Shown here: positions 6,028-30,858 of the stretch, in pieces
How the letters are laid out: the number at the start of each line of letters is the position of its first letter
Position numbering within the stretch: the stretch's first letter is position 1
Virus record (IMG/VR): IMGVR_UViG_3300030451_002654
Location: 1-36,064 of that record
DNA length: 36,064 nt
From: a virus
Direction: 5' to 3' (one strand)
Made by a program: the position numbers and the translations under genes
The notes under the pieces: model-generated
The model's database searches: none
Told to the model about the DNA's origin: nothing
What the model saw: the letters and a program-made list of their open reading frames with translations, nothing else

Positions 6028-6744
6028 ATGAGTAAAACATTCACCCTAAGCATCCCAAAAGAGTTATCTGGAATATCTCTTAAGCAGTATCAAAAGTATA
6101 TCAAGACTGTAAAGGTTGAACAGGGCAAAGAGCCTACAAAGGAAGAAATAGACTTTGCGAATCTAAAACTATTGGAATGTTTTTGTGGTATTACAATGAA
6201 GGAAGCTTATAATCTACCTCTAACAGAATTTAGTGGGATTATAGGACATATTGCAGAGCTGTTTAAAGAAGATACACCACTGCAAAGAACATTTGAGATG
6301 ACTGATCCTAATGGACAAACAGTAAAGTTTGGGTTTATGCCTAAGCTTGACGATATATCTTTAGGTGAGTTTATCGATTTAGACAAGTATATATCAGACT
6401 GGCAGCAGATGCACAAAGCATTAGCTGTATTATATAGACCAGTTGTATTTGAGAAAAAGGATTTATACTTAATAGAAGAATATGAGGGGTCAGATAAATA
6501 TGCAGACGTGATGTTAGATGCTCCTGTTAATGTAGCACTGGGAGCAACGGTTTTTTTTTACCGTTTAGGCAGCGAGTTGTCGAAGCATATGATGGGTTAT
6601 TTGGAGAAACAGCTGAAGGTGGACTCGGAGCTTCAGCAAACTTTGGAGCAAAATGGGGTTGGTATCAATCAATTTACGGACTTGCTCAAGGCGACCCAAC
6701 AAAATTTAAAGACGTTACAAAACTTTCCTTATTTCAATGCTTAA
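6028..6744 (+). CDS. Tail assembly chaperone (zero-frame product)
   Basis: A 238-residue protein of a type common in Bacteroidetes siphoviruses, starting SKTFTLSIPKEL. It lies 8 kb ahead of the tape measure gene, as tail chaperones (lambda G/T type) usually lie before it. Features include the LECFCGI segment, LDDISLGEFIDLDKYISDW (about residues 110-128) and GATVFFYRLGSELS near residue 172. At residues 175-178 the coding strand has a run of nine T (6551-6559). From here a second open frame overlaps to 6812, giving a probable frameshifted longer form. Zero-frame translation ends at 6744 and would act as the G-like short form. The chaperone role is inferred from position and the frameshift. Confidence 0.75.
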   Translation: MSKTFTLSIPKELSGISLKQYQKYIKTVKVEQGKEPTKEEIDFANLKLLECFCGITMKEAYNLPLTEFSGIIGHIAELFKEDTPLQRTFEMTDPNGQTVKFGFMPKLDDISLGEFIDLDKYISDWQQMHKALAVLYRPVVFEKKDLYLIEEYEGSDKYADVMLDAPVNVALGATVFFYRLGSELSKHMMGYLEKQLKVDSELQQTLEQNGVGINQFTDLLKATQQNLKTLQNFPYFNA

Positions 6745-6812
6745 CCTGGTTAGAGTTTGAAAAGGAAAAGAATGAACTGGAAAGAAAAATGTTAAAACAA
6801 AATATAAGATGA
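6549..6812 (+). other. -1 frame extension of tail chaperone, slippery T9A
   Basis: A -1 shift on the T run at 6551-6559 would join 177 zero-frame residues to 84 more (TTA at 6558 to AGA at 6809), a 261-residue product. The new tail contains AKWGWYQSIYGLAQGDPTKF and CLTWLEFEKEKNELERKM, a conserved-looking sequence. Its stop TGA overlaps the next ATG (ATGA, 6809-6812), as for other coupled genes here. The overlap keeps two frames open for about 185 bases in AT-rich DNA. The mechanism could be ribosomal -1 slippage, transcriptional slippage adding one base, or (less likely) a homopolymer sequencing error. Confidence 0.75.
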
Positions 6813-7270
6813 GACAAGTTTATACAGTATTAGATAAATTAAAAACAATATTAAGAGCTAACGGCACGACAAAAACCGTCACCTTCGGTGACATACTTGA
6901 AGTTGATCTAAACAAGACAACTATATATCCACTTGCTCATATCGTATTTGGCAATGTAGTATTTACAGATAGAATGATGACTGCTACTCTGCAAGTATTA
7001 TGTTTAGACATAGTAGATGTAAACAAAGAAAAGCAGACTGAAGATAATTTCTATGGCAATGACAATTTGCAAGATGTATTAAATACTCAACTACAAGTCA
7101 TAAACGACTTACAACAAAACTTAAGAAGAGGAGATGCTTTCTCTGATAACTTTCAAGTAATAACAACTGTAACTGCAGAACCTATGCTTGATAAATATGA
7201 GAATCAATTAGCAGGATGGGGAATGACTGTAGATATACAAGTACCAACAAATGAATTATCTCTTTGCTAA
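6809..7270 (+). CDS. Tail completion/terminator-like protein
   Basis: A 153-residue protein of alpha/beta character. It starts with a helix (VYTVLDKLKTIL) and contains MTATLQVLCLDIVDVN and a C-terminal beta strand (WGMTVDIQVP), a pattern seen in tail terminator and head-tail joining proteins of siphoviruses. It starts in ATGA overlap with the chaperone extension and its stop overlaps the next start (TAATG). The assignment is by position and fold impression, not by a clear motif. Confidence 0.55.
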   Translation: MRQVYTVLDKLKTILRANGTTKTVTFGDILEVDLNKTTIYPLAHIVFGNVVFTDRMMTATLQVLCLDIVDVNKEKQTEDNFYGNDNLQDVLNTQLQVINDLQQNLRRGDAFSDNFQVITTVTAEPMLDKYENQLAGWGMTVDIQVPTNELSLC

Positions 7271-7746
7271 TGGTATATACTTTTACAGCTGAAGCTTTAA
7301 ATAGATTAAGAGTAAAAATTACTGATGAGATAAAAAATGAAATTGACTCAAAGAAGTTAAAAGCGACAGGAAGATTAAGAAATAGCATTAGAGGAACTGT
7401 ATTTGCTTCGTCTAAATCTATCTCACTAAACATCTATGCAGCTGAATATTTTGATTCAATTGATAAAGGTACAGATCCAGGAACAAAACCTCCTTATAGC
7501 AAAATAGCAGAATGGGCATATAAAAAAGGATTACAACCTTTTAACAAGCAAGGAAGTAAAGTTAGAATGATTAAATCTATTCAAGAAGCTATTCTACAAA
7601 AAGGTACAATAAAAAGATTTTCATATGGTGGTGCAAAGATAATTGACCACATAAACAGAAAATATAAAGATGAAATAACAGAAGAGATAAAACAAGGTTA
7701 TTTAAAAGACTTAGAATCAGAAATAAATATAAATGGGAACAATTAA
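7270..7746 (+). CDS. HK97 gp10-like head-tail joining protein
   Basis: A 158-residue basic protein. It contains KLKATGRLRNSIRGTV, then YFDSIDKGTDPGTKPPYSKI, the short 'GRLRNS ... YA..I..GT' pattern of the HK97 gp10 family (tail completion or joining). ATG 7270 is chosen because it overlaps the previous stop as TAATG; a TTG-type start at 7264 is less likely. It overlaps the next gene by 14 bases. Confidence 0.6.
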   Translation: MVYTFTAEALNRLRVKITDEIKNEIDSKKLKATGRLRNSIRGTVFASSKSISLNIYAAEYFDSIDKGTDPGTKPPYSKIAEWAYKKGLQPFNKQGSKVRMIKSIQEAILQKGTIKRFSYGGAKIIDHINRKYKDEITEEIKQGYLKDLESEININGNN

Positions 7747-14790: not shown

Positions 14791-14936
14791 TGATTAAACT
14801 AATAATAGAACTATTAAAGACAGATAATTTTTATGGAGTTAATCCTTATATAGACATTGCTAAAGGAAAGTATAAAGCTCCTTTAACAATAACAGAAGCA
14901 AAAGAAGTAATTAAACGTAGATGGTATGGCAGATAA
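14790..14936 (+). CDS. Small protein between hub and tape measure
   Basis: A 48-residue basic protein. Its ATG overlaps the hub stop (TAATG) and its end overlaps the tape measure start by 11 bases, so coupled translation is likely. It has a helical start (MIKLIIELLKTDNFYG) and ends EVIKRRWYGR. The function is unknown; it may be a small assembly factor. Confidence 0.65.
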   Translation: MIKLIIELLKTDNFYGVNPYIDIAKGKYKAPLTITEAKEVIKRRWYGR

Positions 14937-16824
14937 CAAAAGAATAGTATATACAATTATAATAGATGATAAAGGTAGGGTTAAAATAGAAGACCTTACT
15001 AATTCATTTGAGAGTGCTTCAACTGCAGTAAAAACATTAAATCAAGATTTAATTACGCAGGGTAATATAATGGAGGATAACTCCAAAAAGAATCAAAATA
15101 TGATTGATAAAACAGGATTAGCTGGAGCTACTCTTGTTGAATTATCAAGAACTGTTTCTGATTTTAACTATGGTTTTAGAGCAATGGCTAACAACCTTTC
15201 TCAATTATCTACACTATTTATTACACTTATAGCAACAACAGGGGGGTTAAGAGATGCTGTTGGTCAGTTAACAAAAGCATTTAGAGGTCCGTTAGGATTT
15301 ATAGTTGCTTTTCAAGTTGCTATTGCTGTAATAGAATATTTTACCTTAAATGCAAAAAAAGCTACAGAAGAAGTAGAAAAACTTAATGAAGAATTATCAA
15401 AACAGCAAGGCTTAAATGAAAATATGAGAGTGTTTGTAGAAATACTCAAAGATGGAAACTCTACAGTAGAAATGCAAACTTTAGCAATGGCTAAACTTAA
15501 AAAGGAAGGTTATGATCCAACTGTAGGTTCATTAGAAGAATTTGAAGCTGCCTTGTTAAAAGTGCAAGAACTTGAACTCGAAGAAATAAAAAGAAATGAA
15601 TCAATAGAAGCTCAATTAGAAAAAAGAAGACAAAAAGAAGCTGATTTAGCAGATGCAAAAGTTAGACACGCAGACGCAGATGCTTATTATCAAAGAACTT
15701 CAACTCAACCAGCAATAGATGCTTTAGAAGAAGAACTTGATTTAATTGATTTAAATATTACTGCAGCTCAAACAGGATTTATAAACGCTTCTAAAGAAAT
15801 ATTAAATTCAGAAGAAATAAAAGGAAACCCATTTTTAGCATCACTTTTAGGTTTAAAAACTACAGATGATAAAGGTGTGAGAAAACCAAAAGTAAAAGTA
15901 TTTGATTTTGGTGATGCAGGTGAGCTTTTAGGTAGATTATTTCAGGATATCGAAGATGAATTAGAGGAAAGAGATAAAGAAGCTAAATCTAAAAAAAGAG
16001 CAAGATTAAGAAGGTTGTTAGGTTTGCCTACAGATGAGGAACAGAAAGAAGAATTAAGTAAATTTTTAAGTAGTGAAAGAGAAAGAATAGATTTAAAAGA
16101 AGAAGAGCATCAAAAAGACTTACAAAGAATAGAAGAAAGAAAACAAGCAAATGAAAGACTAACTCAAATGCTTGTTTCACAAATAGGAAAATTAGCAACA
16201 ATACAAAACAAAGCTTTTCAAGGACAGATAACAAGGTTGAATACTGAAAGAGACATTATTTTAAATAATGATAATCTTACTGCAAAAGAAAAAGATAGAT
16301 TGTTAAAAGAAAACGATAAACAAACAAGAGAAATAAGAATAAGACAAATAAAGTTTGAAAGAGATATGTTTCAGATACAAGCTGCTATGGAACTTGCAAA
16401 ATTAACAATGGCAGCTAATGGTGTTTTATTTAACATAGGAGCATCTGCAACTCAAGGAACACTTGACGCTACTTCTTCTATAGGTAAGTTTTTACAACAA
16501 TTAGGTCCTATTGCAGGTCCTGTTGCATTTGCAGCAATGATAGGTGGTGTTATAGCTCAAATAACATCTGCAAGAAAAGCAGCTGAACAACAAATAAGAG
16601 CTCTATCTGGTCCATTAAAAGGAGTTAATGCAAGTGGTGGAGGTTCTTCACCACAAGCACAAGCTCCTGCATTTAACGTAGTAGGTGCAACACAGACAAG
16701 TCAACTTGCTCAAACAATATCACAAGCCGAGCAACAGCCTATAAAAGCATTTGTCGTAGCGTCTGATGTTTCTACTGCACAGGAACTTGAACGTAGTACG
16801 ATTGAAGGAGCATCTATTGGATAA
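14926..16824 (+). CDS. Tape measure protein
   Basis: A 632-residue, largely helical protein with long charged coiled coils (about residues 140-260 and 330-480) and hydrophobic membrane-like stretches (LSTLFITLIATTGG and LGFIVAFQVAIAVIEYF, about 90-140; GPIAGPVAFAAMIGGVIAQI, about 525-545). This build is typical of tape measure proteins, which set tail length and exit with the DNA. At roughly 1.5 angstroms per residue, it would suggest a tail near 90-100 nm. It is the last gene of the tail block. Confidence 0.85.
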   Translation: MADNKRIVYTIIIDDKGRVKIEDLTNSFESASTAVKTLNQDLITQGNIMEDNSKKNQNMIDKTGLAGATLVELSRTVSDFNYGFRAMANNLSQLSTLFITLIATTGGLRDAVGQLTKAFRGPLGFIVAFQVAIAVIEYFTLNAKKATEEVEKLNEELSKQQGLNENMRVFVEILKDGNSTVEMQTLAMAKLKKEGYDPTVGSLEEFEAALLKVQELELEEIKRNESIEAQLEKRRQKEADLADAKVRHADADAYYQRTSTQPAIDALEEELDLIDLNITAAQTGFINASKEILNSEEIKGNPFLASLLGLKTTDDKGVRKPKVKVFDFGDAGELLGRLFQDIEDELEERDKEAKSKKRARLRRLLGLPTDEEQKEELSKFLSSERERIDLKEEEHQKDLQRIEERKQANERLTQMLVSQIGKLATIQNKAFQGQITRLNTERDIILNNDNLTAKEKDRLLKENDKQTREIRIRQIKFERDMFQIQAAMELAKLTMAANGVLFNIGASATQGTLDATSSIGKFLQQLGPIAGPVAFAAMIGGVIAQITSARKAAEQQIRALSGPLKGVNASGGGSSPQAQAPAFNVVGATQTSQLAQTISQAEQQPIKAFVVASDVSTAQELERSTIEGASIG

Positions 16825-29252: not shown

Positions 29253-29714
29253 ATGAATAATATAAGTACACATATAACTTATAGAGAAGCCATCAAATCG
29301 AATACAGCATTACGTTTAAACATAGAAAATACTCCTGCAGAATACGAAATTAGCAATATGAGAACTTTAGCTAATGAAGTATTTGAACCATTAAGAGAAT
29401 GGGTAGGTGGTCCAATTAAGATTAATAGTATGTTTAGATGTCCTGAATTAAATACTGCTATAGGTGGCAGCTCTAACTCTCAACATTGTCAAGGTAGAGC
29501 TATGGACATAGATGATGTTTATGGTCATAAAACTAACGCAGAAATGTTTCAATATATAAGAGATAACTTAGAGTATGATCAAATGATATGGGAATTTGGT
29601 GATGACGATAATCCTGATTGGGTTCACGTTAGTTATAAAAACGAGAGAGATAACAGAAAGAAATGTTTAAGAGCATTTAAAAGAGATGGTAAAACACATT
29701 ATATGCAGATATGA
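29253..29714 (+). CDS. M15-family peptidase, probable endolysin
   Basis: A 153-residue zinc peptidase of the M15 (D-Ala-D-Ala carboxypeptidase/endolysin) type. The motif SQHCQGRAMDID puts zinc ligands at His78 and Asp85, and WVHVSY gives His125. INSMFRCPELNTAIGG is the usual preceding segment. It would cut peptidoglycan peptides to release phage. No signal peptide is seen, so it would need a holin. Length matches single-domain phage M15 enzymes. It overlaps the next gene by 4 bases. Confidence 0.85.
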   Translation: MNNISTHITYREAIKSNTALRLNIENTPAEYEISNMRTLANEVFEPLREWVGGPIKINSMFRCPELNTAIGGSSNSQHCQGRAMDIDDVYGHKTNAEMFQYIRDNLEYDQMIWEFGDDDNPDWVHVSYKNERDNRKKCLRAFKRDGKTHYMQI

Positions 29715-30498: not shown

Positions 30499-30858
30499 GT
30501 GGAGTTAAGATATTTTACATTTGATGAGTTTGATTCTCCTGATTATCCAGGTAGTGGATATAAATATATGGACAGAGAATTTGTAGATTGCTTAGATGAA
30601 GCGAGAGATATTGCAGGAATACAGTTTGAAATTCTATCAGGATATAGAACACCAAAGGTTAATAATGAATTAAACGGAGGTACAGCAAGTTCACACTTAA
30701 TTGGCAGAGCTGCAATCATTAAATGTTCCCACACAGGCAAAAGGTTAAAGATCATAGAAGCTTTATCTATGGTTGGCTTTCAACGTTTCGGTATTTCAAA
30801 TACAGAAATATATGTTGATAATGATACACAGAAACCTAATGCTATCTGGCTCTACTAA
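30499..30858 (+). CDS. M15-like protein lacking two zinc ligands
   Basis: A 119-residue protein of the M15_3-like fold. It shows YFTFDEFDSPDYPG at the start, FEILSGYRTPKVN, then SSHLIGRAAIIKC. In active relatives this is SxHxxGxAxD; here the zinc Asp is Ile73 and the C-terminal zinc His (usually IHVD) is Tyr105 (EIYVD). His66 remains. It is therefore probably inactive as a peptidase. The GTG start matches the family N-terminus and the next Met is at residue 24. It has its own promoter and terminator, apart from the lysis genes. It may bind cell-wall peptide, or regulate or exclude superinfection. Confidence 0.75.
   Translation: MELRYFTFDEFDSPDYPGSGYKYMDREFVDCLDEARDIAGIQFEILSGYRTPKVNNELNGGTASSHLIGRAAIIKCSHTGKRLKIIEALSMVGFQRFGISNTEIYVDNDTQKPNAIWLY

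Follow-up and report, generated by a model that had tools for sequence, protein, structure and literature searches.

The gpG and gpGT proteins of phage lambda are two products of a single start that share their N-terminal part, generated by a -1 shift at a slippery site; the longer one carries an additional C-terminal domain (PMC5009743). In phage P2, the E and E+E' products (91 and 142 aa) result from a slip at TTTTTTG with no downstream hairpin (PMC3091744), and in bacteria, transcriptional slippage on runs of nine A or nine T has been described in IS elements and in Thermus dnaX (PMC1088944). The gene analyzed here is located in a window of 36,064 nucleotides (the whole stretch of IMG/VR record IMGVR_UViG_3300030451_002654), a piece of a tailed-phage genome in which terminase, portal, head protease and capsid-like genes are also present, and it is probably a two-product gene of the gpG/gpGT and E/E+E' kind that operates by ribosomal -1 slippage.

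Comparative sequence evidence indicates that this gene has in common with lambda gpG/gpGT a shared N-terminal part, an additional C-terminal domain in the longer form, two products from one start and a -1 shift at a slippery heptamer. It differs from lambda in that the shift is located 61 codons before the zero-frame stop, rather than near the 3' end, in that both frames are selected over the overlap, and in its position: it follows a terminase gene and lies approximately 8 kb upstream of a probable tape-measure gene (14926-16824; weak phrog_18891 match, E 9e-4), from which it is separated by several genes, and is thus not directly upstream of it. The lambda parallel drawn in an earlier note on this sequence holds for the two-product gene logic, while the chaperone function is attributed by inference and the gene position is different. 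The same note had set a switch so far before the zero-frame stop against lambda, which is correct, although the arrangement is not unprecedented, as seen in P2 E/E+E' (PMC3091744). The T-run heptamer and the lack of downstream structure are also features of P2 E/E+E', from which the present gene differs by a run of at least nine T, by longer proteins and by a sequence that is unrelated as far as the libraries show. The overlap with the zero frame in P2 E/E+E' is reportedly also sizeable. A conserved homopolymer of at least nine bases, as in the 9A/9T transcriptional-slippage genes, is seen at 282 T sites of the family; one clade has A_AAT_TTT in its place, where polymerase should not slip.

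Recalculation reproduced all coordinates and lengths that had been proposed for the gene (products of 238 and 261 residues, a tail of 84, and ends of 61 versus 84 residues), and the resulting layout is presented in Table 1. The -1 shift after TTT TTT joins 177 shared residues to the 84 residues of the tail, at a point approximately 183 nt upstream of the zero-frame stop, and the base following the T9 run is A. Positions 6531 to 6809 are open in the -1 frame, whose TGA stop (6810-6812) overlaps the ATG (6809-6811) of the next gene, so that the TGA/ATG overlap claimed for this junction is seen as ATGA at 6809-6812. The overlap had a GC content of 0.423, compared with 0.358 upstream, 0.277 in the tail-only part and 0.315 for the whole window, in agreement with the lower AT content expected there. 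The T9 at 6551 is the only run of at least nine T inside any listed sense-strand gene of the window, and the other T9/T10 runs (2423, 3891 and 20341) are all intergenic. No ATG, GTG or TTG is found in the -1 frame upstream of the WGWY motif, and therefore the tail in the window needs a frame switch. An AACGGT/ACCGTT inverted repeat flanks the T run (6546-6565) and is confined to the close relatives of the window.

Table 1. Features of the two-frame gene and its surroundings (positions within the window).
Feature	Position	Strand	Remarks
Zero-frame gene, short product, 238 aa	6028..6744	+	Stop TAA 6742-6744
T9 run with in-phase slippery heptamer T_TTT_TTT (6553-6559)	6551..6559	+	Zero frame reads GTT TTT TTT TAC
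-1 frame tail, 84 codons, helical domain with KWGWYQSIYGLAQGD motif	6558..6809	+	
Dual-coded stretch, approximately 61 codons in both frames	6560..6741	+	
Next gene, 153 aa, overlaps the -1 stop as ATGA	6809..7270	+	

Scanning of IMG/VR, GTDB genomes, a phage collection and Bacteroidota genomes yielded hundreds of loci, and profiles built for both domains identified 288 distinct tails, each with the upstream gene as its partner. In every one of the 288, on IMG/VR contigs as well as in bacterial genomes, the tail occupies the -1 frame of the gene upstream, a frame relation that, judged on these sequences, is far above chance. The relatives include cultured Nonlabens phages, a prophage-like copy within a large chromosomal contig (L442) and, from the GTDB scan, copies on contigs of Flavobacterium, Psychroflexus and another Bacteroidetes MAG. 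The gene family is carried by a large, uncharacterised group of Bacteroidota phages from marine and freshwater settings, and its known relatives lie in Bacteroidota. Within the phage collection, the N-domain as query retrieved the Nonlabens phages only, and the tail protein alone as query gave no matches. The homologous gene of Nonlabens phages P12024S and P12024L (Inhavirus) has a CTT TTT TTT TAT site and a -1 tail containing LKW[GS]WYH, and its annotation splits it into two hypothetical genes. In both P12024S (L052, 12534-12701; JQ823122.1, P12024S_39) and P12024L (L053, 3522-3689; P12024L_41), a separate hypothetical gene corresponds to the C-terminal part of the -1 tail, and a two-frame gene explains this separate-ORF annotation.

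Genomic context analysis revealed that the order two-frame gene, 149-153-aa gene and 160-171-aa gene (6809-7746 in the window for the latter two) is kept even in distant relatives, and that in L442 and L443 this three-gene order directly follows the large terminase gene. In the window, a Dam-type adenine methyltransferase gene (PF05869; 5583-5999) is located directly upstream of the two-frame gene. Elsewhere in the window, at 29253-29714 and 30499-30858, a peptidase M15 domain protein (PF08291) is encoded together with a nearby second ORF that appears M15-like by eye; two endolysin-like genes together would be unusual.

The slip site was found to be highly conserved among the homologues. All 282 distinct T-run sites have at least nine T, and lengths of 7 or 8 were never seen: 260 sites read NTT TTT TTT T, 18 have length 10, one has length 12, and three contain T9 in other registers. 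The odd registers TTT TTT TTT C and GGT TTT TTT TTG both still have exactly nine T. An in-phase X_XXY_YYZ heptamer, mostly T_TTT_TTT, is present in 230 of the 230 aligned cases. In one clade of 13 distinct sequences, A_AAT_TTT replaces T_TTT_TTT at exactly the same codons; the preceding codon is GTA, GCA or ATA, with a constant A at the third base while the residue changes, and the gene layout is the same, the site being free of T runs of seven or longer. At the slip codons, the V and the first F both showed 0.00 of the expected synonymous diversity and the second F showed 0.06, while upstream of the slip GTT accounts for about one-third of Val codons and 23% of the Phe codons are TTC. The -1 frame is conserved immediately from the slip onwards (F3, R4). 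A stimulatory RNA structure at the slip was rejected, since the 60-nt windows covering -90 to +150 all had a mean z close to zero and no consensus structure for the slip region emerged from RNAalifold. Rfam searches returned only sub-threshold microRNA and lncRNA matches, and upstream of the slip no strong synonymous constraint was found that would mark a Shine-Dalgarno-like signal.

Dual coding of the overlap was evaluated by measuring dS in the fused frame across 82 independent pairs, a synonymous-site comparison of the kind suggested in the earlier note. Synonymous change was strongly suppressed after the slip: dS was 0.632 upstream, 0.140 in the first ~22 codons post-slip, 0.303 in the rest of the overlap and 0.457 past the zero-frame stop. 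The bootstrapped ratio to the post-stop zone was 0.31 (0.24-0.38) for the first ~22 codons and 0.66 (0.54-0.81) for the rest of the overlap, the latter being conservative because signals of the next gene may themselves lower dS in the post-stop zone. Past the zero-frame stop, where the -1 frame stands alone, dN/dS was 0.11. The zero-frame open run after the slip had a median of 62 codons in the relatives, as compared to an expectation of ~13 (the mean zero-frame run after resampling synonymous codons of the -1 tail). Among the representatives, zero-frame stops per 50 codons amounted to 0.10 observed against 2.36 expected, while the unused third frame showed 5.41 against 5.92, and the zero frame beyond its usual stop 2.92 against 2.61. 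The drop in dS together with the depletion of zero-frame stops across the overlap indicates that both frames are maintained; at the level of sequence comparison, the dual coding is real and both frames are under selection. The zero-frame constraint peaks in the first ~22 codons post-slip and is weaker in the remainder. The length of the zero-frame tail varies, with just 25 codons in the Nonlabens phages and ~80 in the A_AAT_TTT clade, and that of the -1 tail is mostly ~82-89 codons.

In accordance with the two-frame reading, the slip site and the -1 tail are retained among the homologues and the zero frame nearly always stays open; no homologue found has a single frame there, and conservation is better in the -1 frame than in the zero frame. 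The one exception, alone among 237 homologues, is L225, which keeps T9 and has a -1 stop one codon past the slip (TTA TAA) with the tail beyond it conserved, and which is possibly a damaged copy or the result of a base error.

Structure prediction of the zero-frame product with AlphaFold2 (70 sequences) gave a mean pLDDT of 87, with confidence of ~60 past residue 200. The model comprises a folded N-domain (approximately residues 1-165), a helix at 167-198 and two weaker helices. The predicted helix 167-198 passes through the slip point at 176-177, so that the slip sits within a helix that either frame can continue, and the first ~22 post-slip zero-frame codons, the zone of strongest zero-frame constraint, complete it. 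Folded separately, the -1 tail reached a mean pLDDT of 86, with main helices at 25-42, 47-54 and 58-83. Foldseek retrieved several predicted viral proteins of 226-267 aa, among them A0A6J5N0W0 and A0A516L611, that match both the N-domain and the tail models; these Foldseek matches suggest that single-frame versions of the long product may exist elsewhere.

Searches for known families gave no significant match in Pfam or NCBIfam and no match in PDB profile and fold searches; across these three resources, no significant sequence or solved-fold similarity to known tail chaperones was found. The family phrog_32199 (unknown function) matched the zero-frame gene in 70 of the 70 aligned members, and Pfam, PHROGs and NCBIfam assign no function to either domain. 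The family phrog_166, annotated as tail protein, matched two of the 70 members (best E 2.5e-5), and in one case the fold of an annotated tail assembly chaperone was matched weakly (E 0.1).

In the mechanism that we consider probable, translation would begin at a single start and most ribosomes would stay in the zero frame, producing the 238-aa protein. A fraction of the ribosomes would slip back one base with tRNA-Phe on T_TTT_TTT (GTT TTT TTT TAC) and continue in the -1 frame, producing a 261-aa protein with the same 177-residue N-terminal part and another C-terminal helical domain; the 61 codons downstream of the slip are read, and selected, in both frames. If lambda gpG/gpGT and P2 E/E+E' are taken as models, the short form would act as an abundant tail-assembly chaperone and the long form as a rare partner linking the tape measure to the tail-tube protein. 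Sequence comparison establishes the frame relation, the conservation of the slip site, the dual coding and the missing internal start. We infer the ribosomal nature of the slip, its efficiency and the chaperone role, the last from the two-product gene logic, the setting among structural genes and the weak phrog_166 and fold hints. Because it is not adjacent to the tape-measure gene, the gene is said here to work like G/GT and is not filed as a proven member of that class.

The most serious alternative is that RNA polymerase slips on T9, giving some mRNAs with 10 U from which ordinary translation reads the -1 tail, with ribosomal slippage operating in the A_AAT_TTT clade. This would account for a run that never falls below nine T at any of the T sites, although seven suffice for a ribosome, and for the two odd registers, which keep exactly nine. 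In the codon counts, 7 of 282 sites carry a third T ahead of the first Phe codon and 14 of 282 carry two T's behind the last one; both nine-T rescues by chance would have a probability of ~0.05 x 0.025, of the order of 0.001, a post hoc figure from very few events. The A-site Phe of the in-phase heptamer is TTT where TTC would be synonymous in both frames, and the lack of a stimulatory structure at the slip is also as expected of transcriptional slippage and, like the missing Shine-Dalgarno-like signal, counts against the ribosomal account. In addition, selection against T/A runs starts to show at nine bases in many bacterial genomes (PMC1088944). As the run is never 7 or 8, as nine T are retained after flank changes and as nine coincides with that length, polymerase slippage in the T9 lineages keeps an appreciable probability, but we regard it as unlikely.

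Several observations argue against it. The A_AAT_TTT clade keeps the gene layout without a T run of at least 7, and slippage of RNA polymerase on a T run therefore cannot serve that clade. The V, L, I or F before and the T-initial codons after Phe-Phe would mostly yield nine T's from protein constraint. The T at the last position also fits ribosomes, since with a single tRNA-Phe a UUC codon should slip to UUU less readily than UUU does. Finally, the known tail-chaperone cases are described as ribosomal (PMC5009743). That one family uses two machines, with polymerase slippage on T9 in most lineages, ribosomal slippage on A_AAT_TTT in one clade and the overlap selected in both frames in either case, is a proposal that we hold as doubtful, a shade more so than polymerase slippage as such. 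The A_AAT_TTT clade speaks for tandem ribosomal slippage, as do the precedents of lambda G/GT and P2 E/E+E'.

Translation of the -1 tail alone from an internal start, never fused to the N-domain, might be suggested by the separate small ORF annotated there in the Nonlabens phages. However, a start codon before the conserved motif is absent from the window and from 146 of 230 relatives, just 6 of 230 have an ATG there, the slip site does not vary, and -1 conservation begins at the slip itself; an internal start was rejected on the missing start codons and is highly improbable. A sequencing or assembly error in a homopolymer, a kind of sequence prone to errors, with a true run of 10 T and a plain single frame of 261 aa, has a negligible probability and was rejected, given nine T in hundreds of independent contigs and bacterial genomes, selection on the post-slip zero-frame codons and a clade with A_AAT_TTT and no homopolymer.

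No report of tail-gene recoding in Bacteroidota phages was found in the literature searched. The gene is probably a distinctive version of the lambda-type frameshift trick of tail building, which is itself already known. A protein family that is nameless in the libraries used, yet common in environmental phages, thereby acquires two products and a probable role. With about 290 natural sequences, it represents a well-populated case for how dual coding persists, and the same set may serve to ask whether ribosome and RNA polymerase can take each other's place at one recoding site.
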